From Tetradesmus obliquus (Eukaryota; Chlorophyta; Chlorophyceae; Sphaeropleales; Scenedesmaceae), in assembly GCA_030272155.1 (NCBI GenBank), contig CP126204.1, positions 2,719,501 to 2,783,500 of the forward strand: a stretch of DNA of 64,000 bases, given 5' to 3'. Shown here piece after piece: positions 827 through 50,017 of the stretch; positions within the stretch are counted from its first letter, which is position 1, and each line of letters opens with the position of its first letter. The notes below the pieces were generated by a model. The model made no database searches and was not told the origin of the DNA. It worked only from the letters and a program-made list of their open reading frames with translations. The translations under genes were made by a program, and so were the position numbers.

Positions 827-872
<46 letters not shown>

Positions 873-7686: not shown

Positions 7687-7691
7687 TTACA
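7687..7691 (-). terminator. Probable poly(A) signal of the ABCG gene
   Basis: TGTAA on the minus strand, 292 nt beyond the ABCG stop codon at 7984-7986. The distance fits a normal algal 3' UTR. Confidence 0.45.
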
Positions 7692-7983: not shown

Positions 7984-10900
7984 TCACTCAGACGCCTTGC
8001 GCCGCACTTTGAACCACACCAGCAGCCACAGCAGCAGCCGGCACATCAGCCCGAGGCCCCCTAGAAGCGCAAACGCCAGGATCTGCTGCGGCCTGCAGTT
8101 TGCATGCAAGTACTCTGGGTGGTTGTAGTACTGCCAGAGTTGCGTCATCGCAGCAGCAGCCGCTGCATCTGGTAGGCCGTCGCTGTTGCTCGCGCGCGCC
8201 GCGGCGTAAGCGTCCGCTGCTGCTGCTGCCATTGCGTCAGCGCGCTGCACGCTACTCATGCGCCACCAGTCCTGACCTGCTGTGGCATTGGAGGTGGTGA
8301 AGTTGAGCCCTACATTACAACAGGCATTGTGCGAGCAGAATGGAGCGCGGCAGAAGCAGCTTGGTTAATGGTTAATCTTGGTAGAACCTGCGCCACAAGT
8401 CCTGGCCGGCTGTGGCATTGCAGCAGCATGAATGGCACGCGTAAAGCACAGTCGGCAGCGGTCCCGTTGGTATCTAGGTTACACCTCACAAGGTGTTGTG
8501 AAGCTGAGCGGCGCAATGTCATATGCAGCAGCAGCCATTGTGTGTGCACAGCACAAACGGCATTGGCCGAGCCCCACACTTGGCCTTCTGTGGCTTTGGA
8601 GGTTTTGGAGCTGAGCCCTGCTGTGCAGGGGGCTATTGTTGAAGCCCGAAGCTGCTGAAAGTGCTGGCAAACAGTGCTGCCACCCCAGCAGCCATAGCCG
8701 TGCCCCTCACCGTTCCCTGCTGTCAGGCGTGTGGAGTCGTGGCTCTGCAGCGTCTGCAGCATCTCAGGATCAAGCCCACAGAAGCCCAAGCCTGCAGGAA
8801 GCATCAAAACCACAGATGTTTGAGATGTTGTTTAGGGTTTAGGGTTTTGCAGCAGCAGCAGCAGCAGCAGCAGCGTCTGCAGCATCTCTGGGTCCAGCCC
8901 ACAAAAGCCCAAGCCTGCAGATCAGACCAAGACAGAAGTAACAGAGGGTCAGGGTGTGATTCTTCCCTTTTGCAGCAGCAGCAGCAGCAGCCTGGTGAGC
9001 ATGCTTTCACTTTAGATTCATGTCCAGTGCCAGCTGCAGGTGCGTGCTTGCTTTGACTGTGTTATGCTAGCGTGACCTCGACCCAAAATGTGTGACACCG
9101 TACCTCCCAGGAAGGCGGCGACTGCTGGGGCTCGCTGGTTGTGTGTTGGAGTGAGCCAGCTGATATATACGGCCTGCAGGCCCCACCTGAGCATGACAAG
9201 AAACACAGCAGCAACAGAGACAGAGCTGCGTCAGCATGGGCACTACTGCATGGTGCGATGTGCATTGGGATGATCCAGCTGAAGGACCCGGCTTGCAGGC
9301 CCCACCTGGCAATGACAAGAACAAAAGGCAGCAACAAAGACATTGCTGTGTCAGCATGAGCACTACTGAATGGCAGGATGGTTGTTGGAGTGAGCCAGCT
9401 GATGTACACGGCCTGCAGACCCTGCCTGGAAGAGGCAGCGGCATATAACACAAATAACACAAAAACAACACATGTCAGATGCCATGCCGCAAACAGCACA
9501 GATGGCGCTGAGCCAGCTGATGTACACGGCCTGCAGGCCCCACCTGGGCACGCAGCGGCAAATAACACAAATGACACATGTTACGTAACATGCCGCCAAC
9601 AGCACAGATGACGCTGAGCCAGCTGATGTACACGGATGGCAGCAAGCTCACAGGCAGCAGAAGCTGGTTTTGGTTTGAAATGAATTCCAGTTTGCACTGC
9701 GTGTTAGATCTCCTCACCGCGTGTAGCTGATGCCGTTGAGCCATGTCAGCGGGTGCGCCTTGGCGAGGGTCCACAGCCGGGGGGCGATGCCGTTGGCCAC
9801 GCCGCCCAGGATCATGGCAGCAGCCAGGCCCGCGATCAGGCTGTTGCGGGGCGACACTGCCATGGACACCTGCAGCAGAATTGATCGTCACTTAGAACCC
9901 CGGAATGAGACAAAGACACGGAGTGTCACAGTTGTGCCACCCAGAATCATATGGCAGCAGCCAGGCCCGCGATCAGGCTATTATGGGGGGATACCGCCAT
10001 TGACACCTGCAGAAACAGTTGGTGTGAACGCAACTTCCTGCTATGACACACAACAGAGACGGCCGCAACGCAGAGCACACTACTGCTGAGCAGCTCCCGA
10101 AGCTGTTGTGCACTACACAAGGCTGTTTGTTTATGCAGTACTACTGCACTTGATGGTATCAAGAGAAGCCACAAGCACAGCTGCGCTCTGCCACTCACCA
10201 GGTAGCCAGCGCCAGAGCTGTACCAGCTGTACCAGCCTTTGTGCCAGCGCCAGAGCTGTATCAGCTGTACCAGCTGTACCAGCTGTACCATGCAGTACTA
10301 CTGTACCGGCCGATCGCCACCAGTGCCATGTAGTACGCGCCAGCAGGCACCGCTGCACCCTATTTCACATTTTGAAAACTTACTTCAGTTCAAAAACTTA
10401 AATCCCAATCTAACTCACCAGGTAGCCAGCGCCGGAGCAGTACCAGCCAACTGCCATGGCATGAGTGCCGTTTAGTACGCACCAGCAGGCACACGTGCAC
10501 CCTGTTCCACATTTTAACCAACTGAAACCATTTCAAAAACTAAAGCCCATTTCAAAACTCAAACCCCAAACCGACTCACCAGGTAGCCAGCGCCAGAGCA
10601 GTACCAGCCGATCGCCACCAGTGCCATGTAGTAGACCCCAGCAGGCAACCCTGCACCCTATTTCATGTTTCAAAAACATAAATACTATTACTGATTATTT
10701 GATGAACCCCAGACTGACTCACCAGGTATCCCACACCAGAGAAAAACAGGCCAACCGCCAACAGCGCCATGTAGCACGCACCAGCAGGGACCGCTGCACC
10801 CTCTTTCACATTTTGAAAACTTAAATCAATTCAAAGTCTCAAATCCCAAACTAACTCACCAGGTAGCCCACGCCAGAGCAGTACCAGCCAACCGCCACCA

Positions 10901-11923
10901 GTGCCATGTAGTACGCGCCAGCAGGCACGGGAGACAGCGTCAGCACGTACAGCCACGCAAAGAACAGCGCCGGGTGCAGCAGCAGGCCCAGGCAGTCGAA
11001 GATCTGGTGCCCAAACACCCAAGCGATCACGCTCACACCACCCTGCGGCAGCAGCAGCAGCAGCGGCAGCAGCAGTGTTAGCAGCAGCAGTGCTAGCAGG
11101 CCCAGGCAGTCAAAGATCTAGTGCCCAAACACCCGAGGAATGACGCTCAGACCGCCCTGTGGTGGCAGCAGCAGCGAAACAGACAAGCACAGCGGTAAGA
11201 GCAGGCGCAGCCGCACGAGACGAGCCACATGTCGCGTGACAAAAGCACGTGCATGCACCGCCGCAACTCGAACAAGCGCATGCTTATTGCAGGAACAGCA
11301 AGGCAACAGCAGTAGCTAGGGCCCTGGCATCAGGCCGCTACACTCGCAGCACATAATGCGCACAGCTCCTCTGACCATGCTCCTGCTGCAGGAAGAGCTG
11401 CCGCTCCGTGCCGTAGCGGTCGAAAGCGACACTGTCCTAACACGCAGCCCACAGGATTAGTGCATGCTTGTGCCTCACAGGGGCATCCTAGCCGCACCCA
11501 GATGATGGTGAGGGCATCACTCCATGCCAGCCCTGCGCTCACCATGCTCTCCTGCAGGAGGGGGTGCCGCTCCGTGCCATAACTATGAACAGTGCCCCAA
11601 AACCACTCATGTTTCAAGCGCAGCGCCATACACACACGACCAGAGCACACCCCTCAGCTCACCATGCTCTCCTGCTGCAGGAAGAGGTACCGCTCCGTGC
11701 CGTAACTATGAACAGTGCCCCAAAACCACAAACGATTCAAGCGCAGCACCATAGACACACGACCAGGGCACAGCACCTGCGCTCACCATGCTCTCCTGCT
11801 GCAGGAAGAGGTGCCGCTCCGTGCCGTAGCTGTTGATGCTGCGCGCCAGCATCATGCAGCCGTACGCCAGCTGCGTGATCAGCATCCACAGCAGCGACAG
11901 CTGCGGGTTGTTGTTGCGGCCCT

Positions 11924-11969
<46 letters not shown>

Positions 11970-14900
11970 CAAACACAGTGGGTCAGTCTTGACAGCCGCT
12001 GCAGCACGGTTTCCGGCCTGTCTGCTGCCAAGGCCATGTTGGCTGTGGTAGTACTGCACTGCTGGTGCACAGCCCTTACTTACAAATGGGCTGCAAAGGT
12101 TCTCAACATCCAACAACTGGTAGATACAGTGCAGCTTGGCACAACCGAGTGTTTTTTTTAAATCCAACTGACCTGCGCCACTCCCACCGCAATGCCCAGC
12201 AGCGCCGTCAGCAGCAGGTCGGTCATCATTACCAGTGTCATTATCATACCCAGCAGTAGCAGTAGAAGCAGGGTTTTACGTATGTTATGTTAACTAAACC
12301 GCCCGTACCTGCGCCACGCCCACCGCAATGCCCAGCAGCGCCGTCAGCAGCAGGTCTGTCATCAGCGCCGCGCGCGACGACACCCACTTGCGCGCACTGC
12401 GCAGGATGATCAGCTTCACCTGGTGCGCCAGCGAGGATAATCAGCAGGATAGTCAGGATAATGGCAGGATAACGGCAGGACGATGGCAAGGTAATGGCAG
12501 GACAATGGCTGGACAATGGCAGGACAATGGCAGGATATTCAGGACGATCCGGATAAGCAGGGTAAGCAAGATATCCGCATGATGATCAGCTTCACCTGGT
12601 GCGCCAGCAAGGATAATCAGCAGGATAGTCAGGATAATGGCAGGACGATGGCAAGATAATGGCAGGATAATCAGGAGGATCCAGATAATCAGGATGATCA
12701 CAATGACCGCAAAATGATCAGCTTCACCTGGTGCGCCAGGCTCGGCGGTCGCCGGCGCCGCACCGCTGCTGCTGCATTCGTGCATGCCACCTTCCTGGCG
12801 GCTGGGTCCAGTGGTGCTGCTTTGTGCAGTGCATCTGCCTCCTCATCATCTTGATGAAGATCTGGCAGCAGCAGTGGGTTCTTTTTGTGTCTGGCGAAGC
12901 TGCTGCTGCTGCTGTGGGCTGCTGCTGCGGCCTCGTGATCGGTGCTGCTCTCCTTGACCTGCTGCAGCCTGCCGACCACGTGCGTGGAAGTGTCCTGGCG
13001 CTCCGCCTCCTCCTGCAAGTGCACAAGGCATGGCAGGTGCGGGATCCATCACTTTTTTTTTTGAAAGTTGTTATGCTCGTACTGCAGTGGATTCGTGTGC
13101 ATGAGTCAGTGTGAGGAGTCCTGTTACTCAGCGTCCTCCTGCGCAAATGTACATCAACGAGGTATTGCAACACATGGGTCGGATGTGAGGTTGCTCTCCT
13201 TGACCTGCTGCAGCCTGCCGATCACAGTAGGTGAAGGGGTCCTGGCGCTCCGCCTCCTCCTGCAAGTGCAACATAAATGGCAGGCAGGTGCGTGATACCA
13301 TCAACAACATGTTGTGTGAATGGTTTGGATAATAACTTCGGTGAGTTTGTGTGCACGATCCAGCGCTAGGAATCCTGCCGCCCAGCCGCCTCCTGCGTGC
13401 ACGCACAGCAGAAGGGCATTGCAAAACATGGGTCAGCTTTGAGGTCGCTTTCCTTGACCTGCTGCAGCCTGCCGATCACAAGCGGGGAGGGGATGGCGCT
13501 CAGCCTCCTCCTGCAAAAGCACAAATTGGGATATTGCAACAGGCCCGCAGGTGCTGCATCATCAGGAACTCAGTCGCCTGGTTCAAGCACAGCGCTCGCG
13601 CCTCCTGCAGCAGCTTATCTGAATACGCAAACCATGCAATGCTGTATTTTGTAGCAGCTATCATGGCTACAGAAACACTCCAGCCCCACCTGCAGGTGCT
13701 GCATCATCAGGAAATCAGCCAGCTGGTCCAGGCACAGCGCGCAAGCCTTATCAAGCAACCATCCAGACATGTAAAGCTACTCTGGAAATCTGTTTCTTAA
13801 GTCACACAACGGCAGGTGCTGCATCATCAGGAAGTCTGGTTCAAGCACAGCGCGCGAGCCTCGTCCAGCAACTGCTTCACATTTCAACCGTACAGTTCTG
13901 CACATTTCACCATAAACTTCAGTTTCATATCTACCCACCTGCAGGTGCTGCATCATCAGGAAGTCTGCCAGCTGGTTCAGGCACAGCGCGCGAGCCTCAT
14001 CCAGCAACTGCTTCACATTTCAACCATACATTCCTGCACTTTTCACCATAAACTTCAGTTTCATATCTACCCACCTGCAGGTGCTGCATCATCAGGAAGT
14101 CTGCCAGCTGGTTCAGGCACAGCGCGCGAGCCTCAACACGCAACCCTTTACAAATGTTACGTTGAAAAAAGGTATGGTCTATCACAGGTCCCAGGTCACT
14201 CACCTGCAGGTGCTGCATCATCAGAAAATCCGCCAGCTGGTTCAGGCACAGCGCGCGGGCCTCATCCAGAGTAGCGCAGGGCCCCGCCAACGCCATCTGG
14301 CTGCACACCTGGCTGGCTGTGCGCAGCTGCCGAGCCTCTTTCAGCTGCTGCATGCCGCTTGCTGCACTCGCATTCGCAGCCAGCACCACCTTGCTTGCTG
14401 CCCGGAAGCGGCTCAACGCCTGCCTGTACTTTGCCACCTGTTGCATCGCCTCGCTGCTGCTCATGGCGGGTGCATCTGCAGCAGCAGGCGGCAGCGCTAC
14501 GCTTCGGCCAGCTGCTGCTGCTGCCGGCTGCTGCTGCTGCTGCTTTTGCTTAGTGCTGGTCTGGCGCAGTAGCGCATTGCGCTGCAGCCTTGCAGCAGCA
14601 CATGTCAGCATGCCTGGAGAGCATGCAGGCACATTCAGATTGGGGCAAGTGGAGCCGCCTGCCGCCTCGTTTGCTGCACACTCTGCTGCTGCTGCATCCA
14701 TTTCTGCAGAGCTGGCAGTTGCCAGTGTAGCGGCTGCCTCAGCAACCTTCGGGTCATCTGCTGCTGCCCTGAAGATCGCTGCTGCTGCCAGTTTGCACGT
14801 CGTGCTGTCGCCCGGCACGCCAGTTGCCTCACTCTGCTGCCGGCACTCAGCTTCTGCGGCGTGCAGTGCAGGCAGCGCTGCTGTTGCAGCAGCAAACGGC

Positions 14901-17045
14901 GAGGCCTCGGGTGCAGCAGCTGTGTCATCGTCCAGGCTCTCGTATGAGCTGTATGCAGCAAAAGTGGACGTGCGTGTCAGCGGCGATGCTGCCTGCTGTT
15001 CCGGCTGCTGCACTGCTGCCGTAGGGGGTGCGTCGTCACCCGCTGCTGCCGCTGCTGCTGCGGCCACGTGCTGCTGCTGCTGCTGCTTCACTGCCCCAGC
15101 AGCTTTGCCGTCTGCTGCAGCAGCTGCAGCAGCAGCAGCAGCGGCCGCCTGAGGTGTGCCGGCAGGTTTCGCCGGCATTCCTGTTGCTGTTGTTACTGCT
15201 GATGATGATGACGTAGTGCCTGCTGCTGCCCTCAGCTGTGCTTTGAGTGCTGCCATGAACTGGTCCTGTGTGATGGAGCTGCCTGGTGACATGCCAAAGT
15301 CGTCACACACGCCCGAAATGAACACAGCAAATTGCTCCTGTGCGGCACACAAACAGTAGCAAATGCAGACAGCAGGAACAGCAGAGCAGGCACAGAAAGA
15401 GCCAGTTCAGGTTGGCTGCAGCACAGGTGAACGTGCACTGGAATAAGGGTTGGTTGTTGAGTCCAGCCATGAACTGGTCCTGTGTAATGCAGCTGCCTGG
15501 TGGCATGCCAACTTTATCACACACGCCCGAAATGAACACAGCAAATTGCTCCTGCACGTTGCACAAAATGCGCAATGGCAGACAGCAGGAGCAGCAGAGC
15601 AGGCACAGAAAGAGCCAGTTCAGAACAACTGCAGCACAGATGATCATGCACTGCAATCAGGGTTGTTGAGTGCAGCCATGAACTGATCTTGAGGGATGGA
15701 GCTGCCTGGTGACATGCCAAAGTCGTCACACACGCCCGAGATGAACACAGCAAATTGCTCCTGCACGTTGCACAAACAATGCGCAATGGCAGACAGCAGG
15801 AACAGCAGAGCAGGCACAGAAAGAGCCAGTTCAGGTTGGCTGCAGCACAGGTGGACATGCACTGGAATCAGGGTTGGTTGTTGAGTCCAGCCATGAACTG
15901 GTCCTGTGTGATGGAGCTGCCTGGTGACATGCCAAAGTCGTCACACATGCCCAAAATGAACACAGCAAATTGCTCCTGTGCAGCACAAGGACATGAAAAG
16001 TGGCATTACAATCGTCACGCAAAGCAGGGCAGTTGCACAGGGGCACCAGACACAGCAGGCAGGCAGACATCTGTTCGCGCTGGTTGCGGCAGAAGGGAAC
16101 ATGCACCGCAACCAAGGTTGTGAGAGGTGTGCATTGAAGCTGCGCATAGGTGCTCCTACTGTGATGTTTCCAGCTTTGTTCAACGACAGTTCATAGCGTC
16201 AAATCCTAGCCACAACACATACCTCACTGTGAAGTTCCCAATGCACCAAAGCATGCAGCACCACAGCATGCAGCAAACCAACACAACATCCTTCCCGCCA
16301 CCTAGCTCAGCACAACCTGATTCAAACTTCCCGCCAACTTGGTCAAATTTCAAACACACTCACCTCCCCCAGCAGGCTCTTCACGCCCGCCTCGTCCCAG
16401 AACTTCATGAAGCCCTCGCAGCTCAGCACAGCCTGATTCAATGTTTCCCGCCGATTTGGCCCATTTTCAAAATTCATCACACTCACCTCTTCCAGCAGGG
16501 TTGTTCACTCCAGCCTCGTCCTAGGACTTCAGTAAGCCCTCGTAGCTCAGCACAGCCTGATTCAAAGTTTCCCGCCAACTTGGCCCATTTTCAAAATTCA
16601 AACACACTCACCTCGCCCAGCAGGCTCTTCACGCCCGCCTCGTCCCAGAACGTTAGGAAGCCCTCGTAGCTCAGCACGCTGCCCTTGTCATTTATGTTAT
16701 CGCCATCAGCATCGGCCAGCTGCTCCGCGAAGCTGTTATTTTTTCGAATGTCCCGCTTCGCATCCACGAGCAGGTGGAACCGCGACAGCAGCGCCTCCAA
16801 ATCCCGAGGCCTCCACGGCCAGTCCACGACCGGCGTGGAAGCCGGTGCCGGGATGTGCACCGGCACGCCGGTGGCGGTTGCCGCGTGCTGCAGCATGCCG
16901 GGATCGGACAGTGCCCGCTGCTCTTCCCGCAGCTGCCGGGCCACCCACACCTCGCCGCACTTGCTCCACATCGTGGACAGCTGCGAGGGAATGTAGTCTG
17001 TTGTTGCACAGTGCAGGCGGTTGAGGGGTTGAGGGGTTGGCGATT

Positions 17046-17111
<66 letters not shown>

Positions 17112-17476
17112 CCATCAGATGACACATGCAAGCTGGCACAGAGTATCTCATATGTAAGTGATGTGCGCAAGCCGGGATGCAAGAACGGCTGTTGATTGCT
17201 GACGGCAGGCATGTGCCCACATGCTGCAGTGGCAGATGGTGGCAGACAGTATACACTGTTGCCGCAAACAGAACAGTGTACACACTGTTGCTGCAAACAA
17301 AACAGTGTACACTGCCGCTGCAAACATGTTGCTGCACATCACATGGAGCGGCTAACGCGCATCAAACAGTGTGGGGCTGCACAGACAGACCTGCACAAAA
17401 ACAACTAATGTACAGCAGCTTGCTTGGCTACAGCTGAGGCGATGCACTGTGGTGCTGTGAATGCTGTAAGTGCCAC

Positions 17477-17509
<33 letters not shown>

Positions 17510-20500
17510 AGTCTCTCAGGCAGCACCAGTTAGCAGGGCAAACACTCACCAGGGTCCTGCGGGCGCGGCACGACGCCTGCGGCATCAATAACGAGAATGC
17601 AGAGATGCAAAGTGAAAAGCCAGACACCGCCAGGCTCAGAGAATACAAGCATGGCACTACACAGGTCAATGGTGTTGGTCACTATGCCTACTCATGCATG
17701 CATGATCGTTCACATTGCCATGCGTAATCCCTTTAGCCCAAAAGCAAAGCGGACAACAACCACATCACGTTGCTGACAGACCCACCTGCGATCACGTACA
17801 TCAAAAAGTCTGCCACGTTCTCTCCAGGTGGAATGTAGATGCCCAGGAAAGCAGCGTAGGCCAGCACCATGCTCAAGTGCATAACAAGCAAACAACATGT
17901 CACTAACATACTGCCACACCTGCAATGGCGTCCATCTGATAGTCTGCCACGTTCTCTCCAGGTGGGATGTAGAAGCCCAGGAAAGCAACGTAAGCCAACA
18001 AGCCGCAAAAGCGTGTGACAAGCAAATAACATGTCACTAACACACTAACACACCTGCAATGACGTCCATCAGAAAGTCTGCCACATTCTCCCCCGGTGGA
18101 ATGTAGAAGCCCAGGAACGCAGCGTAGGCCAGCGCCATGCACAAGTGCACGACAAGCAAATAACACGTCACTAACACACTAACACACCTGCAATGACGTC
18201 CATCAAAAAGTCTGCCACGTTCTCCCCCGGTGGAATGTAGAAGCCCAGGAACGCAGCGTAGGCCAACAAGCCGCAAAAGCGTGTGACAAGCAAATAACAT
18301 GTCACTAACACACCTGCAATGACCTCCATCAGAAAGTTTGCCACATTCTCCCCCGGTGGAATGTAGAAGCCCAGGAACGCAGCCTAGGCCAGCGCCATGC
18401 ACAAGTGCACGACAAGCAAATAACACGTCACTAACACACTAACACACCTGCAATGACGTCCATCAGAAAGTCTGCCACGTTCTCCCCCGGTGGAATGTAG
18501 AAGCCCAGGAACGCAGCGTAGGCCAACAAGCCGCAAAAGCGTGTGACAAGCAAATAACATGTCACTAACACACCTGCAATGACGTCCATCAGAAAGTCTG
18601 CCACATTCTCCCCCGGTGGAATGTAGAAGCCCAGGAACGCAGCGTAGGCCAGCGCCATGCGCTGCGGGCCCGCAAACACCACATGCCCACAGCTGCTGAG
18701 CAGCAGGCAGGTGTCAAACATGTTGAAGATGGAGCACCTGCGGCAGCAGCAGCAAAATTTTGCAGTACATACCTTAAATGTGTGCTGCACTGCACTGCCA
18801 AGGTATGCGTGCGCAGGCTGCAGCGCGCATCGTAAGCACAAATTGCCAGCGCACACACCCTGCTAACCTCGAACCTGCCACTCATCACACGCCGCACATT
18901 CATTTGGAGAGACTGCTGTGCAGCGCTGTCCACAGAAATCCACCGTGGCTGGTGCATCACCGCCAGCACGTTCATGCCGCGCTCGCTGCTGCTCTTCAGC
19001 CCGCCCACCAACCCCGCTGCTGCCGCCGCCTAAACCCTCGGCAAAGGCCACTCAAAACCCTACCCACCGTGGCTGGTGCATCACCGCCAGCACGTTCATG
19101 CCGCGCTCGCTGCTGCTCTTCAGCGCGCCCACCGCACCCCACTGCTGCCGCCACCTAAACCCTGGCCAAGGCTACCCCAAACCCCTACCCACCGTGGCTG
19201 GTGCATCACGGCCAGCACGTTCATGCCGCGCTCGCTGCTGCTCTTCAGCGCTCCCACCACATCGTATGCCACAGCAGCATCCAGCCCGCTGGTGGGCTCA
19301 TCCAGCCACAGCAGCGCAGGCTTGGCCACCAGCTCCACCCCTATGGCCACGCGCTTGCGCTGCCCGCCGCTGATCATGCGTGATCCTGAGCAGCCCACCA
19401 CCTGCATTTGTAAGATGTGTGACAAAGCAAGCAGAACATTGTACCTTGTAAGCAGTCCTTTGATTGCAGAAATTTCTGATTTGATGAGGCAGGAAAGGGT
19501 TGCAAAAGGCAAGCAGCGCAGGCTTGCCCACAAGCTCCACGCCAATAGCCACGCGCTTGCGCTGCCCTCCTGAGATCATGCGCGACCCGGAGCAGCCCAC
19601 CACCTGTAACGGCAGCATGTGGATCACCAAACGGTGCAGCAACCAAACACCAGGTGAGCAGCCGTTTTACAGTTGCAGGCATGTTGCTGTGTGTTGCATG
19701 TGCTTTGGTAGCAGCGCTGAGGCAGGCTTGGCCACAAGCTCCACCCCTATGGCCACGCGCTTGCGCTGCCCGCCGCTGATCATGCGCGAGCCAGAGCAGC
19801 CCACCACTTGCAGCATATACGTCATGGTGCATCATTGGTGGAAACATGCAGCTGATCTGAGGTAGCGGGCAATGTGACCGAACCGAAGCTATGTCGTAGA
19901 CGCAGTGCAGTGCTTTGTCTGGCGGTTTTGTGTTGCCACTTTGCAGTTGTTGCTGCCAGCTGCACTGCAATGGCCACGCGCTTGCGCTGCACGCCGCTGA
20001 TCATGCGCAAGTTGGAGCAGCCCACCATCCGGCCCACCACCCAGTGCATAGGCCTAGCTCACCACCCACCCCACCACCCAGCCCACCACCAGACGCCACT
20101 GTACCTGGTGCGCCACCTTGTTCAGTGCCATCAGCGCCATCACTTCCAGCACCATGCCAGACAACCAAAGCCCTCAACCCCAATCGTGTAACCATAGACT
20201 GAACCCTAAACCCACCTGGTGTGCCACCTTGTTCAGCGCCATGAGCGCCACACCAGACAACCAAAGCCCTTAACCCCAATCGTGAAACCTTGGACCCTGA
20301 ACCCTAAACCCACCTGGTGCGCCACCTTGTTCAGCGCCATCAGCGCCATCACTTCCAGCACCACGCCAGACAACCAAAGCCCTCAACCTCAATCGTGAAA
20401 CCTTTGACCCTGAACCCTAAACCCACCTGGTGGGCAACCTTGCTCAGCGCCATCAGCGCCATCACCTCCAGCACCACCCCAAACAACCAAAGCCCTCAAC

Positions 20501-21954
20501 CCCAATCGTGTAACCATAGACTGAACGCTAAACCCACCTGGTATGCCACCTTGTTCAGTGCCATCAGCGCCACCCCAGACAACCAAGGCCCTCAACCCCA
20601 ATCATTACACCATATCCCCCAAACCCTGAACCCACCTGGTGGGCCACCTTGTTTAGAGCCATGAGCGCCATCACCTCCAGCACCACCCCAGGCAACCAAA
20701 GCCCTCAACCCAACCGCCAAACCATAGACCCTGAACCCTAAACCCACCTGGTGGGCCACCTTGTTCAGTGCCATCAGCGCCATCACCTCCAGCACCACGC
20801 CAGACACCTGGCCGCGCCGCAGCCGTCGCTGCCGCCGCTTGGCGGCCCACGCGTCGCACAGGTCGGCTGCAGCGTTGTGAGCAGCGCTGTATGGCAGCCG
20901 CAGCCGGCACGCAATCTCCAGGTTCTCCAGCACCTGCATGTGCAAGTGAAGTGTTGAAGTCTAGGGTTTGGGGTTTTGAGGTTGCTTTGTGTGAGAATGA
21001 TAGGCGTGTCTGTATGGCAGCCGCAGCCTGCAGGCCATCTCCAGGTTCTTTAACACCTGCATGTACAAGTGAAGTGTTGAAGTCTAGGGTTTGGGGTTTT
21101 GAGTTTGGTGTGTGTGTGAGATTAATAGGCGCCTCTGTTCGGCAGGCGCAGCCGGCATGCTATTTCCAGGTTCTTTAACACCTGGGTGTAGGGTTCAAAC
21201 TTCAGCGTTTCAGCATGGTTGGAAAAACTGGGCAGCGCTGTATGGCAGCCGCAGCCGGCACACAATATCCAGGTTCTCCAGCACCTGCCATGACACGGGT
21301 CTGGGATTTGGGGGTATGGGTTGTTGGGTCGGGTTTGTTTGATGGTCGGACGGTTGGACGAACTGCGGCACGTAGCACCTGCGGAACGTAGCCCATCATG
21401 TCGCAGACAGGTCACACTGTGCTGCAGGACCCATGGGCGCTGCTTAGATCAAAACAGCCAGTTTTCCTCACTAGGTCGATCAATGCATTGAATAAGGCAT
21501 GTACATCATATGCAACATCATATGTCACATAATGACTTATGTTATAACCACTCACCGTGAGGCTCTCATGCAGCAGGTCAAACTGCGGCACGTAACCCGT
21601 CATGTGCGCCAGGTCACACTTTGCCTGCGCCAGCCGCCCTGTGTGGCCACACACCGCCAGCGCACTCTCACTCTTGTAGCTGTCAGCCGCCGAGCTGGCC
21701 AAAACCCTGATGTCGCCCAAAACCCTGTTGGAGGGCAGCCGCCGCGCCAGGGCTTTGCAGAGCGAGGTTTTGCCACAGCCTGAGGGGCCCATGATGGCGT
21801 GCAGCTGAGAGTGGGCGAAGCGGCCAGACACACCTGCAGCAGCAGCAGCAGCAGCAGCAGCAGCGGCAGCAGCAGCAGTAACAGCAGCAGCAGCGTGAGG
21901 GGCCCATGATGGCGTGCAGCTGCGAGTGCATGAAACGGCCAGATACACCTGCAC

Positions 21955-21986
<32 letters not shown>

Positions 21987-22072
21987 GCAGCGGCAGCAGC
22001 AGCAGCAACAGCCTGAGGGGCCCATGATGGCGTGCAGCTGCGAGTGGGCGCAGCGGCCAGACACACCTGCAC

Positions 22073-22120
<48 letters not shown>

Positions 22121-22288
22121 GAGGGGCCCATTATGGCAACCAGCTGCCAGTGAACAAAGCGGCCAGACACTCCTGCAGCAGCAGCAGCAGCAGCAGCAAC
22201 AGCCTGAGGGGCCCATGATGGCGTGCAGCTGAAAGTGGGCGAAGCGGCCAGACACACCTGCAGCAGCAGCAGCAGCAGCAGCAGCAGC

Positions 22289-22323
<35 letters not shown>

Positions 22324-22462
22324 GAGGGACCGATGATGGCGTGCAGCTGCGAGTGGGCGAAGGGGCCAGACACACCTGCAGCAACTGCAGCAGCAGCAGC
22401 AGCAGCTTGAGGTGCCCATGATGGCGTGCAGCTGAGAGTGGGCGAAGCGGCCAGACACACCT

Positions 22463-22493
<31 letters not shown>

Positions 22494-24307
22494 CCTGAGG
22501 GGCCCAATATGGCAACCAGCTGCCCGTGAACAAAGCGGCCAAACACGCCTGCACAAGCAGCAGCAGCAGCAGCCTGAGGGGCCCAATATGGCAACCAGCT
22601 GCCAGTGAACAAAGCGGCCAAACACGCCTGCACAAGCAGCAGCAGCAGCAGCCTGAGGGGCCCATGATGGCGTGCAGCTGAGAGCGGGCGAAGCGGCCAT
22701 ATACGTCTGCGGAATCAGCAGCAGCATGAGAGGCACATGATGGCATGCAGCTGACAGTGGGTAAAGCGTCCAGACACGCCTGCACCAAGATAGACATACA
22801 ACAATGCACCCTGTAATTATTATGCACACTGTAATTATTATTCCAGCAGCCTGCATCAGACAGCGACAGAAACTTGAAGCCGCGGGGCATGGGTGCGGTT
22901 GACATGAACGACTGTTCTCACCTGGGATGATGAATTTGGTTCCCGCTGCTGCAGCAGCATCCAGCTGCTCATCCAGCTCATCCTGCGGCTGCTGCTGCTG
23001 TGGTAAGTACAGCACCCAAAACAGACAATAACAGTGGCGCACAACTCACCTGGGATGATGAACTTTGCTCCTGCTGCTGCAGCAGCATCTAGCTGCTCAT
23101 CCAGCTCAGCCAACTCATCCAGCAGCGCTAGCCGCTACCTCACCCCACTGGACAGCAAACGCCCACTGCACAAGCAAACCCAGTTCTTCAGCTGCTGTTG
23201 CTGCTGCTGGTTGCTGCTGCTGGTGCTGCCAATTGTAAACAACATATGCGCGTTGTTTCACATGCTAATATGCGATGTGCGTCTCACCTGGGATGATGAA
23301 TTTGGTTCCCGCTGCTGCAGCAGCATCCAGCTGCTCATCCAGCTCATCCTGCGGCTGCTGCTGCTGTGGTAAGTACAGCACCCAAAACAGACAATAACAG
23401 TGGCGCACAACTCACCTGGGATGATGAACTTTGCTCCTGCTGCTGCAGCAGCATCTAGCTGCTCATCCAGCTCAGCCAACTTTTCAGCAGCGCTAGCCGC
23501 TACCTCACCCCACTGGACAGCAAACGCCCACTGCACAAGCAAACCCAGTTCTTCAGCTGCTGTTGCTGCTGCTGGCTGCTGCTGCTGGTGCTGCCGATTG
23601 TAAACAACATATGCGCGTTGTTTCACATGCTAATATGCGATGTGCGTCTCACCTGGGATGATGAATTTGGTTCCCGCTGCTGCAGCAGCATCCAACTGCT
23701 CATCCAGCTCATCCAACTCATCCTGTAGCGCTCGCTGCTACCTCACCCCACTGGACAACAAAAGCCCACTGCACAAGCAAGCCCAGTTCACCTCAGCTGC
23801 TGTTGCTGCTGCTGCTGCTGGTGCTGCTGGTGCTGCCGATTGTAGATAACATGTTGTTCCACACGTAAAACACAGTGTTCGTCTCACCTGGGATGATGAA
23901 TTTGGCTCCTGCTGCTGCAGCAGCATCTAGCTGCTTATCCAGCTCCGCCAACTCATCCTGCAGCGCTAGCCGCTCCTTCATAGACCGCCGCATGCTGCGG
24001 TCTTTGCTGCTGCTGCTGCTGCTAACCTGCCCCTTGCCTCCTTCTTTAGCTGAACCCTTGGCAGCTTCTCTGGCATGGGCGCTGCTGCTGCTGCTGTCAA
24101 GAAGGTTCGCTGATGTTTTGCCGCCGCTGCCGCGGCAGCAGGCTGCACGCTGTACTGTATCAACCACCCACTGGCCAAAACCATCGCGGTCAACGCCCCT
24201 GTCTGACACCCAGACTTCTTTGAAAACCAGCGTGAGCCTCGGATTGATTGTGTACTCATTGTCTGCCTCGGCAGCTTCCAGGGAGTCAAGGCTGGCCAAC
24301 AGCAGCA

Positions 24308-24363
<56 letters not shown>

Positions 24364-27300
24364 AGGGGAGTGACGTCAGGTGCAGCAGCGCCAGATCCAG
24401 ACCCAGAGCCGTCACTGCTGCCGCTGATAGTGACAACTGTGTGGCTGCCTGCCTTGACTGCGCCAGATGCTGCTGCGCCGTTGCCGGCGTCACCGGGTGA
24501 CACCGGTGACGCCGTGTCACCGGCGCCGAGTGACGCCCGCGAAGTGCGCGCGGTGCCGCTGAGCCTGCCGCTGAACTTCATGGTGATCTCGCTCTTCTTC
24601 TCGGCGAGTTCACGCTTGAATGCGTGGGCCCATGCCCAGAGAATAAACTTCTTCCCGGTGTGAATTGGTGCGGCTGCCAGCTGGGACGCTTTGTCTGTCA
24701 GGTAGTGACGGTGGGCCCCGGTGGGCTGCGACTGCTGCCAGTTCACACGGTGAACTTCATAGGAAGATCCGTGCGTGCCCACCATCTGGAGGCAGCAAGG
24801 GATGCAGGAGAAGCTCATCAATTACATGGAAGTTTACTGCAGGGAAGCAATGGCTGCCACCTCAAACTACGCTTCCAAATGTTTACAAACCGCTTTCAAA
24901 ACCCACGGCCCCGTCCAGCTGCATCATCTCATCCTCCTGCGCGTCACCTCCTAACCCCACAGCCCCCTGAGCCGCCAGCCCTAAGCCCTAAGACTAACCT
25001 GCAGCTCACCTTGAACCCCACAGCCCCGATCAGCTGCATGATCTGCTCCTGTCAGCTCCGCCCCGCCACCCTCACAAACTCTAGTACAGCCATCATCACC
25101 AGCAGCAGCATCTAACACCCTTACCAAATGCACATCACTGACAATCACCCCGGACATAGGAAAATTCATTGCTGGTATCCTGAGTTCTTCGATACACCGT
25201 TATACACACTGTGACCACTCACCTTGAACCCCACAGCCCCGATGAGCTGCATGATCTCATCCTCCTGTGTGTGCCCCTGCCTCGTCCTTCGCCCCGCCAC
25301 CCTCACGTACTCCAACACAGCCATCAGCAACAGCAGCATCAGCAGCATCAGCGCCAGCCCCAGCCAAGACCAGTCAGGAAAGTCCAAGCCTTGATCGATG
25401 CAGCCGGCCAGGATGGGGCAGCGCACAGGGAAAGACATGAAGCCTGCCAAACAGCATCAGCAGCAGCAGCAGCAGCAGCAGCAGCGGCAGCGGCAGCAGC
25501 AGCAGCATTAGGTGCCAACGCCAGCCAGGATCAGTCTGGAAAATCCACAGCACAGGGAAGGATGTGAAGCCTGCTCGCATGAAGCCATAGAAAAGAGCAA
25601 GGTGTGTGTGATGCCAGGTGTGAAGATGAACACGGCCAAGGCTTACACTCGTGGCAGAGAAACATATGCCTTGCACGTTGCCTTGCACTGATCAAACATG
25701 CATGGCTGAGTCGTGGCTGCTGATGCATGTAAAAGGACAAGTTTTCAACACGCGATAACAGTTCAAGTACAGTTTGTAAAGTTTTACCGGGCACGCGCGC
25801 CAAGCCTGCTGGCTGGACAGGCAGGCAGCAGCTGTTAACACTAGAAAATAGCGGCTGGTAGTGGCTTCAAGACATGAGCCGGGGACGTTTGCAGGAGGGT
25901 GAAGCCAAGCTTGCACAGCAGTAGTGTCATGTCGTGCTGCAACACTACCACTGGCATTGCTGTCAAAGTCCTGCCCTGGCACAAATAGAGCAAGCTGCTT
26001 AAGGCACTCACCAGGACTGTTGAGCAACGTATTCGAAGTACCACAAAGAGGAAGCAGCAGCAGCAGCAGTGACAGTAGCAGTGACAGCAACAGCAGCGGC
26101 AGCAGCAGTGTTGTCAACCAGTGCGCTTTGGTTGGAATTGCCATCAAGTACAATGCAGGAGCCGTCATCAGACGATCAAGCGCCCCCAGTTGGTGACACA
26201 AGCAAGTGCATATAAGTTTTAAATTTAAATTATAAATTTCAGTTTTAATTTAGCCAAACATACCAGTGTCGCCGTATGGGGCACCACCTCATCAGAGCTG
26301 AGGCAGTACAACTTCAACAGCAGTGGGCAGTACAGCTTTGTGTTTCACAGTGTACCGCTTTGCCCAGGCACGCCCGCACGCACCCGTACTGCCCTCTACG
26401 GCACAGCACCACCTTGTCAGGGGTAGTGCAGTAGTCATAAGCAGTACTGGGCAGTACAGCTGCTCCGTGTCTACGATGTAATGCCTGTCAAACTACGCAT
26501 CAGTAGTATCACCACATCCTCAGGGGTGGGGCAGTACAACCTAATCATGAGTGGGCAGGACAAGTGCTCCACGTGTCAAAGTGTACCGCTTTTCAACGGG
26601 TTATACACACAAGCAAGGTTAAAATTGGCCCCACGCACAAGTAGTGACCTATGGGGCAAATCACCACATCCTCAGGGGTGGGGCAGTACAAGCCATTAGT
26701 TGATATGTACTTTACTAAAGACCTCAATCCTGCACGCACCAGTAGTGCCCTATGGGGCATATCACCACATCCTCAGGGGTGGGGCAGAACAACCTAATCA
26801 TGAGTGGGCAGGACAAGTGCTCCACGTGTCAAAGTGTACCGCTTTTCAACGGGTTATACACACAAGCAAGGTTAAAATTGGCCCCACGCACCAGTAGTGC
26901 CCTATGGGGCATGTCACCACATCTTCGGGGCTGGGGCAGTAGGAGCCAGGAGGGCAGCCCTGCAGCGGGTTGGTTGCATTTGCTGGGCAGCTGTTGCCCC
27001 CCAAGTTGTGCCCAGCATTCACCAGGGACTCCAGCAGAGATTGCGGCTCAGATCTGACAGTGCGAAAGGGATTCCACACCAGTAAACCCTGCGGCAGACG
27101 GCATCAGTGACCCCTGAGTGACACACTGGTAGAACCAAGGTAGCTCCAGCAGAGATTGCGGCTCAGATCTGACAGTGCGGAAGGGATTCCACACCAGTAA
27201 ACCCTGCGGCAGACGGCACCAGTGAACCCTGAGTGACACACTGGTAGAACCAAGGTTGCTCCAGCAGGGAGTGCTCATCAGATGTAACCGTGCGGAAAGG

Positions 27301-27780
27301 GTTTGACACTGATCAACCATGCAAGAATGAAAGCAAACTCATGCTGCCGACACGTGGTGCATGAACAAAATCCAGTCAAGGCAGCAGCAGCAGCAGACGA
27401 TGCAGCAGGTGTGCAGCATGCTGCCGGTCACAGGTCTGGTGGCACACCCCATTGCAGCTGCAGAGCAGTACACAGCTGTGGCTGCAGCTGCTGCTGTGTG
27501 GCCTGTAGATGACATACACACATGCATGCCTGATGCTTCAGGACGGCAAGAGTGTCAAACAAAGCGCATGGTGCTGTTCACTGTGAGGTTGCAGTTCTGG
27601 CTGTTGATGCTGCACCCGGTTGGAATGCCTGTTCAAGTTTTAGGGTTCTAGTTTCAAACCGCTGCAGCAGCACTCACTGTGAGGTTGCAGTTCTGGCTGT
27701 TGATGCTGCCCTCAGGGCAGAAGCGGCCCGGCTCACACGGCTGCACCGCTGAGGGGGTGGGGCAGTACGCGCCCTGCGGC

Positions 27781-27842
<62 letters not shown>

Positions 27843-28543
27843 CAACAGCAGCAGCATGTGTAGTCTGTCTGATCACCAGAGTGACAGCGGGAGATAGTTT
27901 GTGCACGCAGGTGCTGTGGCTGGCGCGCCAGCAGCAACCACCATCATGTACATGTGCTATAAATAAGCAACACACTCCAACTCCTGTGGACCTTACAAGT
28001 GTCTGCTAGCAAGCAAAGGCTGAGCCACCGCCTCACCTCAGGGCACGCGCTGAAGCCTCTGCAGGCTCTTGCGGAGCCCACAATCTGGCCCAGGCTGCAG
28101 CTGCAACTCAGCTCACACTACTGCCGCACAACAAACCTATCTCAAACTTGTACTGCTGCTGCCGCTGCACCTCAGGGAGGCGCCTGCCTTGATCTGTGCT
28201 GTTTCTTTCGTGCTAGGCCTGTTACGGTGCTGCTGCCAATTAAAACTACTGGTTTTGGTGCTGCTACAGCCTCACCTCAGGGCAGGCGCTGAAGCCCCTG
28301 CATGCTCTTGCGGAGCCCACAATCTGTCCCAGGCTGCCTTCTTTGCCGCTGGGGTTGGCTGTCAGCGGCTGCAGCGCACAGGTGGATAGGCTCAGCAGGG
28401 AGGCTTCTTGGGTGCCTGGGGGGCAGTACTCGCCTGCAAGGGATTGAAAGCAGCAGCAGCAGCAGCAGCAGCAGATATTCACATGCTCAGCAGGGAGGCT
28501 TCTTGGGTGCCCGGGGGGCAGTACTCGCCTGCACAGGATTGAA

Positions 28544-28620
<77 letters not shown>

Positions 28621-29772
28621 ACATATACATGCTCAGCAGGGAGGCTTCTTTGGTGCCTGGTTGGCAGTACTCGCTTGTCTGCAGAAGCCGGCAGCAGCAG
28701 CAGCTGCAGCGAAAAAGTGTGTAGAGAGGGGATGCCCCTGCGGGCCAGCGCAGCCTGCACCCCACACACCGGCCCCACTCACACGCCGAACATCAGGCAG
28801 TGCTTGCATGTCTGCAGCAACGCTCACCTAGCTGGCATGGGATGCAGATGCTTCCCTGCCTTACCCAACCCCACCACAACCCGCCCCGCCCAACCCCGAC
28901 CCGCCCCGCCCCAAACACACACTGAGCATCAGGCCGTGCTTGCATGTCTGCAGCAATGCTCACCCAGCTGGCAAGGGAGGCACCCAGCTGGCAAGGGATG
29001 CACCCCTCCACCCTACTCCACCCCACCGCCGCCACACTTGCAGTGAGCATTAGGCAGATGTTGACAGTTGGGGTTTAGGCCGTGCTGCATGTCTGCGGCC
29101 CCGCTCACCTAGCTGGCATGGGATGCAGATGCCCCTGCGGGCCAGCGCAGCCTGCAGCCCACCCACTGGCCCCACCCACACACCAAGCATCAGGCAGTGC
29201 TGCATGTTTGCAGCGACGCTCACCTAGCTGGCATGAGATGCAGATGCTCTGCTCCCCTGTCCCACCCCACCCCACCCCGCACCACCCCAGCCCATCACAA
29301 AGATACACTGAGCATCAGGCTGTGCTGCATGTCGGCAGCGATGCTCACCTAGCTGGCACGGAATGCAGATGCCCCTGCGCGCCAGTGCAGCCTGCAGCCC
29401 AGTCGGCTCAAAGCTGAACTCCTCAGCCAGAGTCATATTTGCGCTGCTGCTGCTGTTGCTGCGCAAGCTGGCCTTGTCTGCTGCTGCTGGCGGCGGCTGC
29501 CACCCGACAGATACCAGGTATGCAGCAGCAGATGGGCTGCACCTGAACCCTGCGGGACACACGTTGTACTTTGCTGCTTTGCGCATTGCTGCGATGGCTT
29601 GGCCGGCTCGGGTTTCAGATAAGGGGCCGCTGCGCTGCGGGCCGTCTGCCATATGCATGGTGCAGGGGCAACCTGGGGCAGAGAGAAACACACTCTTTGC
29701 AGGACATTCTGCTGCCGCATCTGCTGCTGCTGCTGCTGTTGCTTGCAGGGGACGCGATGGCGTGCTGCGCGG

Positions 29773-29810
<38 letters not shown>

Positions 29811-30902: not shown

Positions 30903-31593
30903 GCATCATCGCAGACGGCACCAAAGCCAAGCGGCTGCGCAAGGCCGCCATCGTCGGCGCCATTGCGCTGTTCATGCTGGCACTGGGCATCATCACCGGC
31001 TTTTTCATCTCAAAAGCAATCGGCTTAAACCTCATACTGCAACAGCAATCCAAAGAGCGCAGCAACCAGCTGCAGGAAGGTGGCTCCCTGCCTGATGGCA
31101 GCGGGGCGGCTGCAGTAGCGGGGTTTAGGAGAGGCGTGGCTGACGATGTGGTTTTGGCAAAACTCCGGCAGTGGCCAGACCCCTCCAGCCCCCAGGCACT
31201 GCAGCTGCTGCAGGACCCTGCCGGCCCAGACGGTGAGCGCGGCAGCAGCAGCACAGCAGGCTGTTGAGCTTGATGTTGCAGCGACTTTTTGATTTGGACG
31301 CGGAGACATGTGAGCTGCAGCTGCAGTTGCGGCTGCTGTGGGGCCCTGCTGACCCAGACGGTGAGTGCTACCCACACAGCAGTAGCAGGGCAGGGCATTA
31401 CAGGTAACTGTAGGTGTTCAGATGGTTTGGTTGATTGCTTACAGCTGGAGCTATGGGCTGTAGGGGATATGGGCTATACACGAGGATGCTGATGTGTGGG
31501 GTTGAGGTGGGTTGAGCTTTGAGCCATGCAGCAGCGTGAACAGCGGGCATGGGCGCAGCAGGCTGCCAAAGCATTGGCTGCAAAGCGCAGGCG

Positions 31594-31636
<43 letters not shown>

Positions 31637-34600: not shown

Positions 34601-34897
34601 CCACAGCACCCAACTCGATTTGCAGCACACTGTACTTCGGCTACACTGGTGAGCGGTGATTTACTTTGTGATTTTATGGGGAGGTGCTTTGTGATTTTAT
34701 GGGGAGGTGCAGGAATTGGAGGCAGGTGTGGCCATTTCAAATTTAATTGGTTTCTCTTGTGTTACCGCCACAAGGCTATTTATTTTTTCTGAAACATCTC
34801 CACACATCAAAGACCAGACGCTGCTGATGGAGCTGGGGAAACACCTGCACCAGTCGCTCACTGGCTCACACAAGCATCCACAACATCCTATCACTTG

Positions 34898-34960
<63 letters not shown>

Positions 34961-36466
34961 AGGCTCCATCGGCCCCTGGTTCACCAAGGCCTCAGCCACC
35001 TGGCGTGAGGGGCTGAGCGAAGAAAACTGGATCGTGATGACGTGGGACTTCTTTGCACCAGAAGTAGCCAACAGCAAGCGCTTTTGGGACGGCGGCGCTG
35101 TTACGCTGGCGCACGAGCTGGGGCACTACCTGGTGAGGGTTCAGGGTTTGGTGTGTAAGGACATGTGGTTTTGGTGAAGGTTCCAGGGTTTTGCCGCTGC
35201 ATTGCCTTCTTTCTTGCAAACTGCCAGGGTGTGATGCACAGGCACGAGGGAGTCACCGCCTGTGAGGGCGAAGGCCTCAGACGGCCAATAAGCTGATGTT
35301 GTTTTGGGCACCTGGAATTGCTGACTCACTCCAATGTGAGAGTGGGCATGTTACATGCTGTCATCTTACATGTTACACGTGGGTCCTGGGATGATCTTAG
35401 CTCTTTCTCATTGAATTGTATGACTGTACCGCCTGCCGTCTTTCCCAGGGTGTGATGCACACGCACGAGGGAGCCACGGCCTGTGAGGGTGAAGGGCTCA
35501 CAAAGGCAGATGCAGTGCCAGACACGCCAGCTAGCAAATGCCGTGGCCCTGCTGAGCTCAGCATTGGGCGGTAGTGTTGAGTACCATTCACTGTGTTTCG
35601 TGCTGACCCGCCTGCCGCCTGCTGCCTGCCTGCCTGCCGTCTTTCCCAGGGTGTGATGCATACGCATGAGGGAGCCACCGCATGTGAGGGCGAAGGCCTG
35701 ACCAAAGCAGATGCAGTGCCAGACACGCCAGTGAACCGCCAGGTGGAGCAGTGGGCAGCAGAGAACAATTTGGCGGCAAACCTAGCACGGTGGTGCTCGG
35801 ATTTCAGGAATGGCAAGCAGCCACATCCCAAGGAGCTGCTGGACTACAACAGCTGCAAGGCTGACGGCACCACAGACAATGTGAGTGAATTGCAATGATG
35901 TATGTTTGTGTGTGCTGGCAAAGGGCACATATCTGTGCAGCGCAGATTTTGCAGCTTTGTGTATGTGAGTCTCACGATGATGCAGAATCAGAACTGGAAG
36001 TGTGCGCTGCCAGCATGTTGATTGTGCATATGGCACGCAGCCGAAGGAGCTGCTGGACTACAACAGCTGCAGGACAGACAAAACAGCCGACAATGTAAGT
36101 GGATTTGGCGTGTTGTAACTTGCGTGGTTTGGTGAAGAGCAGGCATTTGCGCAGCCTGGCGCTGCCAGCTTATGCATGACTCCTGACAGCTTGCACAACA
36201 CAAGTAGTTCACTTCATGATTTTCAATGTATGAACGCGGGCTGCTTCACCCAAGCGTGCCGTAATCGTTCCATCCGAGTAGGATACAGCCTTTCAGCGCC
36301 AGAGCCAGCTTCAGCCCTGCTTACATGTGGTGAAACAGAAACTCTCCCCTCACAACAGATTTGCTTGTTTGCATGTAGAGGAGGTTGGCCATGCACATGG
36401 CAAGCCGCTGAATGAGCTTGTGGAGTACACCATAGCTGCACAATGACATAGGCAGCGCTGTTTACA

Positions 36467-36506
<40 letters not shown>

Positions 36507-49459: not shown

Positions 49460-49490
<31 letters not shown>

Positions 49491-49947: not shown

Positions 49948-50017
<70 letters not shown>

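Follow-up and report, generated by a model that had tools for sequence, protein, structure and literature searches.

One-sided partial exon copies in the introns of an ABCG transporter gene of Tetradesmus obliquus: placement, divergence and possible origin

The window analysed here is a stretch of 64,000 nt of Tetradesmus obliquus (contig CP126204.1, positions 2,719,501-2,783,500; the assembly has 104.66 Mb in 17 contigs). Its minus strand carries, from 30126 to 7984, an ABCG transporter gene for which we modelled 21 coding exons, and two paralogous metalloprotease genes, PROT1 and PROT2, lie on the plus strand (Table 1). The introns of these genes hold partial copies of the adjoining exons, which we call echoes: an upstream echo typically consists of the acceptor and the exon start, a downstream echo of the exon end and the donor. 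The original prediction, made from the sequence of the window, was that about 20 ABCG exons have such copies, and this is borne out: 20 of the 21 modelled exons are accompanied by a total of 80 exon-derived copies, a few of them weak. The echoes are real and strongly non-random, and they are not genome-wide in a strict sense.

Gene models were built with a purpose-written splice-aware protein-to-DNA aligner; ab initio gene finding was abandoned because codon bias looked weak. The guide for the ABCG model was P0001, a protein of 1254 amino acids (aa) annotated in another T. obliquus assembly, which matches the rough ABCG query at 84% over 70%, aligns to 25252-7987 (minus strand) in 19 exons, and is identical to the final exon model at 1231 of 1245 aligned residues. 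The 5' exons were taken from alignments of two further homologues, and the model was edited by hand in three places (the end of exon 1 was set, two annotated exons were merged into exon 6, and exon 13 was made to start at 15337). Tiny or doubtful end exons were removed: the first of LRR, one of 8 bp in VATPD, the last two of INT, and a possible 5-base exon of ABCG, which two homologues place at 26016-26012 (minus strand), between exons 4 and 5, and which may be a microexon or an alignment patch.

The comparison set consists of 17 genes from four 50-kb blocks at round-number positions on C1 (two blocks), C2 and C3, so that ABCG, PROT1, PROT2 and the block genes make 20 modelled genes. The 17 are those with a usable relative in protein searches, and echo content was no selection criterion; 31 main pieces were queried, a helical-repeat gene, a presumably ClpP-like gene and several others gave no usable relative, and one single-exon match and one match from another species were left unmodelled. 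In the echo scan, every exon with 100 bp on either side was compared with its own gene extended by 1.5 kb at both ends, with simple repeats masked. The scan returned 0 matches when the gene's own introns were randomised, and 3 matches against the introns of another gene.

The side on which a copy lies goes with the splice site it carries. Among the ABCG copies, 39 are downstream with a donor and 19 upstream with an acceptor; a further 8 downstream and 14 upstream copies have no splice site inside the alignment, nine of these 14 being copies of exon 7 that start at masked CAG runs. Two ABCG copies lie past the 3' end of the gene (6992-6959 and 7942-7898). The one-sided rule of the original prediction holds throughout the gene, where no copy has both sites and none has a donor upstream or an acceptor downstream. 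PROT1 and PROT2 both follow it, as had been claimed for the proteases. All 20 genes together give 125 copies (52 downstream with donor, 34 upstream with acceptor, 14 downstream and 23 upstream without site), and the two on the wrong side, downstream with an acceptor, are weak 27- and 34-bp matches in SERAC1, kilobases off, one of which lacks the AG. Two-sided copies, that is alternative or duplicated whole exons, might have proved as common as one-sided ones; across the 20 genes there are 0 in 125. The rule is also without exception in two ABCG paralogues, that of C9 (10 downstream with donor, 6 upstream with acceptor, 10 siteless) and that of C8 (11 conserved exons; 9, 7 and 10), neither of which has a two-sided copy. 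Duplication of whole exons followed by truncation was rejected as a source, since the remnants would lose either side at random and ABCG has 0 side violations.

Table 1. Modelled exons, genes and echoes in the window (positions count from its first nucleotide; number of copies in brackets)
Feature	Position	Strand	Basis or remark
ABCG exons 1-5	30126-29349, 28433-28276, 27773-27678, 27088-26892, 25443-25223	-	spliced protein alignments
ABCG exons 6-10	24785-23888, 21833-21556, 20933-20748, 19401-19193, 18737-18574	-	spliced protein alignments
ABCG exons 11-15	17576-17550, 16997-16612, 15337-14204, 13012-12728, 12419-12309	-	spliced protein alignments
ABCG exons 16-21	11921-11787, 11042-10860, 9869-9718, 9186-9104, 8791-8711, 8309-7984	-	spliced protein alignments
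Exon 1 downstream echoes (exon end, donor)	28731..29247	-	echo scan
Exon 2 upstream echo (acceptor, exon start)	28485..28539	-	echo scan
Exon 2 downstream echo	28024..28098	-	20 codons: 4 synonymous, 0 amino-acid changes
Exon 3 downstream echo	27578..27613	-	36 bp identical; homology stops 4 bp beyond exon
Exon 4 upstream echo	27144..27303	-	echo scan
Exon 4 downstream echoes (5)	26241..26787	-	echo scan
Exon 5 upstream echoes (2)	25514..25574	-	echo scan
Exon 5 downstream echoes (2)	24899..25093	-	echo scan
Exon 6 downstream echoes (6)	22916..23745	-	echo scan
Exon 7 upstream echoes (9), interleaved with CAG runs	21896..22774	-	echo scan
Exon 8 upstream echoes (3)	21010..21288	-	echo scan
Exon 8 downstream echoes (5)	20117..20694	-	echo scan
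Exon 9 upstream echoes (3)	19512..20027	-	nearest, 30 codons: 9 synonymous, 1 amino-acid change
Exon 9 downstream echo	18969..19136	-	echo scan
Exon 10 downstream echo array (5)	17812..18525	-	echo scan
Exon 12 downstream echoes (2)	16303..16553	-	echo scan
Exon 13 upstream echoes (3)	15457..15987	-	echo scan
Exon 13 downstream echoes (3)	13544..14004	-	echo scan
Exon 14 upstream echoes (2)	13192..13524	-	echo scan
Exon 14 end and exon 15 start echoes, within intron 14	12498..12671	-	echo scan
Exon 15 downstream echo	12171..12228	-	18 codons: 2 synonymous, 0 amino-acid changes
Exon 16 downstream echoes (3)	11360..11707	-	echo scan
Exon 17 upstream echo	11095..11153	-	echo scan
Exon 17 downstream echoes (4)	10193..10791	-	echo scan
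Exon 18 upstream echo	9936..10012	-	23 codons: 7 synonymous, 1 amino-acid change
Exon 19 upstream echoes (3)	9259..9550	-	echo scan
Exon 20 upstream echo	8882..8920	-	10 codons: 4 synonymous, 0 amino-acid changes
Exon 21 upstream echoes (2, weak)	8389..8619	-	echo scan
PROT1, metalloprotease gene	30974..36631	+	9 modelled exons, spliced protein alignment
PROT1 echoes	31328-31368, 34159-34201, 34246-34299, 35224-35277, 35431-35530, 36038-36105	+	echo scan
PROT2, paralogous metalloprotease gene	46986..52857	+	9 modelled exons, spliced protein alignment
PROT2 echoes	48883-48911, 50360-50420, 50614-51029 (4), 51781-51854, 51996-52080	+	echo scan
PROT2 echo just past last exon	52948-53039	+	echo scan

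One-sidedness as such is mostly geometry: a tandem duplication across one exon boundary must give a one-sided copy on the side observed. When units of the observed lengths are placed at random, with exon-internal ones removed and introns capped at 280 bp, 62% span one boundary, 33% are intron-only and 4% contain a whole exon. Whole-exon units are thereby expected about 6% as often as one-boundary units, and we observed 0 in 50 (P 0.036); since random units seldom contain a whole exon, the absence of two-sided copies is only mildly informative. The original prediction called on exon definition to explain why the copies are harmless. Decoy sites do seem to be tolerated, but the rule can be explained without exon definition.

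What geometry does not give is the binding of the duplicated units to exons. Of the duplication clusters in the modelled genes, 50 reach into an exon and 1 is intron-only (P 1e-8 against random placement). The random-block genes taken alone have 1 intron-only cluster in 15 (P 0.016), the C9 paralogue has none against 11, and P is 5e-3 to 3e-4 in a conservative test that counts, among the nearest echoes, only the 17 with an intron part alignable over 60 bp or more. These figures bear on an alternative in which the echoes are plain short tandem duplications of the gene's own DNA, made by fill-in and end-joining at staggered breaks or by slippage and neutral afterwards, the exon-internal ones being purged while one-boundary and intronic ones persist. 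Geometry then makes one-boundary units the most frequent survivors, some tandem arrays do have introns that align, and both sequence-independent small tandem duplication by fill-in and end-joining (PMC8355091) and a boundary-crossing tandem duplication in potato (PMC4974935) are known. Such a process, whose position is independent of exons, predicts however that about one third of the clusters are intron-only, and 1 in 51 was found in the modelled genes. Faster decay of introns could mask old intron-only pairs, but not recent ones.

The geometry of the units points in the same direction. The offset from an exon to its nearest echo is 83-165 bp in 41 cases out of 52 and 201-265 bp in the other 11, some of which may conceal an undetected intervening copy. 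The exon share of the shorter units is 0.40 ± 0.15 (range 0.09-0.63, n=41; local alignment may trim the exon part), while random placement, hence plain duplication, would give a flat distribution of the boundary within the unit. The splice site thus tends to sit inside the duplicated unit.

A third observation that plain duplication leaves aside is the nature of the differences between exon and echo. Divergence was calculated for the nearest echo of each boundary, with bootstrap by boundary, as the members of an array are not independent. Over 51 boundaries and 911 codons, the proportion of nonsynonymous differences (pN) is 0.052 and that of synonymous differences (pS) 0.251, and the ratio of the nonsynonymous to the synonymous rate (dN/dS) is 0.18 (0.12-0.24). 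It is 0.16 (0.07-0.31) in the random-block genes alone; in the paralogues it is 0.16 (C9) and 0.22 (C8) with all echoes, 0.21 and 0.20 with nearest echoes only, the upper limits of the latter being 0.46 and 0.51. A simulation in which the copy decays neutrally and the exon is constrained (kappa 2, no GC bias), as plain duplication implies, gives 0.47 (0.38-0.58), well above the value observed. The mutation spectrum measured in the intron parts (kappa 2.4, GC/AT 0.86) is near the simulation setting; mutation bias was rejected as the source of the synonymous excess, these values being too mild, and even an extreme setting (kappa 6 with a GC bias of 3) gives 0.24-0.38. The original prediction, repeated tandem duplication in which one breakpoint falls within an exon, is right in its anatomy, which is that of local duplication, and falls short in leaving unexplained both the near-lack of intron-only clusters and the mostly synonymous differences. 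We regard plain duplication as a somewhat unlikely account and, in any case, an incomplete one.

Of 60 amino-acid differences between exon and echo, spread over four genes, 59 are such that a protein of another strain or source has the residue of the real exon, and stops make up 11 of the 235 changed codons, which is the neutral share. As the amino-acid changes are on the echo and stops are at their neutral share, echoes decay much as unselected sequence does, and the excess of synonymous differences, larger than such decay permits, either pre-existed or arose in the exon. In echoes whose intron can be aligned, the synonymous difference (0.204) exceeds the intron difference (0.126, an underestimate that covers aligned intron only). 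The simplest reading of these sequence comparisons is that exon and echo descend from two forms of the sequence whose divergence, under selection on the protein, preceded the echo.

It may also be asked whether the echoes themselves are kept by selection, either because they are still coding or because they have a role in splicing, as spare sites, decoys or poison exons. Differences are mainly synonymous also between neighbouring echoes (dN/dS 0.33), splice dinucleotides are kept in 101 of 108 cases and better in well-aligned copies than the intron-side rate would give, and between exon 8 and its echoes all differences are synonymous in PROT1 (9:0) as in PROT2 (9:0), the exon-internal end of these echoes also looking shared when judged by eye. 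We nevertheless judge selection unlikely: besides the stops and the 59 amino-acid changes just mentioned, the exon parts of 117 echoes contain 60 gap columns, offsets are not limited to multiples of three, no partner site is evident (by eye) at the exon-internal end of most copies, and splice bases are retained about as well as exon positions, which is expected if only the real site is constrained.

The count behind this last statement was made after realignment, leaving out 14 copies that end more than 12 bp from the boundary. The dinucleotide is intact at 53 of the 57 donors and at 48 of the 51 acceptors. Well-aligned copies retain GT (40 of 41) and AG (40 of 42) more often than expected from the intron-side rate (P 5e-7 and 1e-5), at levels that fall inside, or slightly exceed, the span seen at the exon positions of these copies. 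The intact decoy sites seem to be tolerated. The PIP gene, of 4698 bp, has 7 copies, and its 476-aa relative P0050 aligns without gaps and comes from source contigs of at most 3035 bp, hence most likely from spliced RNA that leaves the 7 copies out. We rejected the idea that echoes are complete small exons with a partner site at their inner end, as the breakpoints show, by eye, no general AG or GT. In our alignment, the annotation of the ABCG protein in the other assembly took in a 31-bp stretch that fits the echo at 15760-15730 and missed part of exon 13 (15337-14204). Automatic annotation may be misled by echoes.

The intron flanks distinguish two kinds of echo. In the first kind, exon and intron parts both align, and arrays with aligned introns show head-to-tail homology over the whole unit; in the second, the exon part keeps 90-100% identity, yet the match breaks off no more than a few bases from the splice site, as in ABCG exons 3 (27613-27578) and 15 (12228-12171) and PIP exon 5. 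Alignment stops within 15 bp past the splice site in 27 of the 51 nearest echoes, while exon parts are mostly 85-100% identical; taken together, the unaligned flanks retain little similarity (Fisher P 7e-5), and in several cases none above chance. PROT1 and PROT2 offer a comparison: their exons differ at pS 0.37 and most of their introns can no longer be aligned, so that conserved exons flanked by introns that do not align are, in this material, the picture given by two diverged gene copies. In exon 5 (33937-34063 and 50159-50285) the two genes share 98% identity and pS falls to 0, whereas it is 0.30 and 0.41 in the neighbours; exon-limited conversion probably occurs between them.

We tentatively propose, at somewhat below an even chance, that each echo is the scar of a failed homology-directed repair on a diverged template. 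A break would occur in or near an exon, and one broken end would pair with a homologous, diverged template, presumably an allele or a paralogue; pairing would work mainly in exons, since diverged copies have introns too dissimilar to pair. Synthesis on the template would then complete the exon and run on through the splice site and for some tens of bases into the template intron. This intron tail, having no match at the other broken end, would be joined to it without homology, in such a way that the copied exon end takes over as the real one and the displaced original stays in the intron with its splice site, and decays. The exon would remain intact because the copy that adjoins its other end is the one with the first donor or the last acceptor. 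Copying that stays inside the exon would re-anneal cleanly, while copying beyond the exon end could not, and some echoes would grow into arrays by later unequal exchange. Such repair accounts for the exon-bound units, the scarcity of intron-only and the absence of whole-exon units, the splice site inside the unit, the synonymous differences and the unaligned flanks. Concerning the template, no second COX15 copy was found (21 of 21 candidates scored), nor any near-identical ABCG copy among the 37 of 1189 candidates that were scored (the best other match is at 79%), which implies that the template would be allelic. Present paralogues are not supported as the source of the copies in COX15 and ABCG; in PROT1 and PROT2 they may be the source.

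Several observations sit badly with repair on a diverged template. At least 3 of the 27 unaligned flanks are shared triplet runs hidden by the masking (upstream of ABCG exons 2 and 7 and of SERAC1 exon 12), chance-level flanks beside 92-100% exon identity are more diverged than would be expected of an allele, and several echoes have intron flanks wholly aligned at 90% or more, like plain tandem duplications. Divergence from the proteins of other strains or sources amounts to just 0.8-2.3%, perhaps too little for a pS of 0.25, and at the three strain-variable ABCG sites that are covered the echo matches the other strain once. Among the 77 clusters of the five blocks, 51 are at modelled exons and 1 is intron-only, but 25 lie outside gene models and cannot be classed as either. 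Nor does the proposal predict that unit size peaks near 120 bp or that three paralogues were hit repeatedly at the same boundaries, and by itself it leaves the patchiness from gene to gene unexplained.

Re-use of boundaries, of which exon 10 is an example (it is broken at exon positions 77-86 in ABCG, 72 and 110 in C9, 73-75 in C8), would rather suggest, together with the boundary-bound units, a self-templated mutational hotspot at exon-intron boundaries, linked to chromatin, transcription or R-loops. Such a hotspot does not explain the synonymous excess, and 11 of the 17 genes in other blocks have no copies; we find it quite improbable. An assembly artefact, in which for example two haplotypes are interwoven, was considered as well, since the divergence looks allelic and the published description of a related Scenedesmus assembly mentions scaffolds predicted to be a secondary haplotype (PMC7955037). 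The regular unit sizes, the strict side rule and the multi-copy arrays of graded divergence tied to exon boundaries make an artefact very improbable. The mechanism is probably either repair on a diverged template or an unusual form of self-duplication.

Echoes are unevenly distributed among genes. The original prediction of a genome-wide architecture was too strong, although copies do recur outside the window, in 6 of the 17 genes and 16 of their 119 exons; the other 11 genes have none, and two of the six (LRR and CHIT) rest on one weak match each. Local duplicates cover 29% of the window and 10.7, 0.4, 1.0 and 6.4% of the four other blocks. Six duplication clusters lie at 53-64 kb of the window, in the region of the helical-repeat and LRR-like genes. 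Seven dense clusters were seen at 18546-22989 of the joined B1 block (L010-L011), in what looks like a ClpP-like gene.

Other features of these regions are of a different kind. Larger tandem repeats with an offset of about 563 bp, up to 1440 bp long at 82%, occur with 12-bp minisatellites at 1774-5627 of the window. Two long open frames at 39414-42589 (plus strand) are unlike the adjoining genes and contain almost no local duplication, and GC content is lower (0.48) at 40-44 kb. The long frames at 613-4426 and 7039-8560 of the B4 block (L024) resemble, in their motifs, the reverse transcriptase and integrase of a retrotransposon.

Whatever their origin, echoes are a readable and repeated mutational signature in ordinary genes, which can lengthen introns and probably misleads annotation. 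A coding sequence conserved despite about 80 partial copies, most of them with an intact splice site, is also a natural test of how the spliceosome ignores decoys. If they do result from failed repair, intron growth would be tied to heterozygosity and the echoes would provide a natural assay of failed inter-homologue repair. It is possible, and we say so with more reserve than for the repair step itself, that echoes form a fossil record of repair between diverged alleles, that introns act as recombination barriers lengthened by its failures, and that an echo archives an older allele of its exon. Among the papers listed in our searches of the open-licence literature, which leaves out most subscription papers, there was no description of gene-wide one-sided exon copies, and a term search of the S. 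obliquus AS-6-11 genome paper (PMC7590803) gave no mention of intron, exon or tandem.

Known routes of intron gain by duplication seem to apply here to one intron. Intron 14 (12727-12420, minus strand) starts with GTGAAGCT and ends with CACCAG, and its flanking exons read CACCAG/GTGAAGCT; the C9 and C8 paralogues align over this place without an intron. It has the appearance of a recent intron that arose when a coding AG/GT was duplicated. Intron gain of the Rogers type, in which a coding AG/GT is duplicated and the intron runs from AGGT to AGGT, describes intron 14 only: echoes generally lie inside introns and have one existing splice site each. As a separate observation, the exon of the C8 paralogue homologous to ABCG exon 17 (11324-12097 of L033 and L034 joined) is split by an intron into 114 and 69 bp, and 3 of the 4 downstream echoes of ABCG exon 17 begin at exon position 114-115, the C8 intron point. 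Echo formation may feed intron gain.

Among other known systems, the RdRp gene of potato has a short tandem duplication across one intron-exon boundary with the acceptor carried along (PMC4974935). The likeness lies in a short tandem duplication within a gene; in potato, however, a single event creates a new intron, whereas here dozens of events keep the coding sequence and lengthen existing introns. Fill-in at break ends by CST and Pol alpha-primase yields small tandem duplications (PMC8355091). They are, like echoes, head-to-tail and joined without a need for homology, but they are self-templated and not tied to exons, while the clusters in our modelled genes are bound to exon boundaries and the copies differ synonymously. 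Internal duplication of genes and exons, reportedly treated by Gao and Lynch in 2009, is said to involve exon-containing segments; it shares with our case the presence of duplicated exonic sequence inside one gene, and differs in that echoes are one-sided intronic fragments. Last, in exon-limited gene conversion between paralogues or alleles, homology is confined to exons and the exons become mosaic. Ordinary conversion of this kind leaves no duplicated end, and echoes would be its failed outcome.

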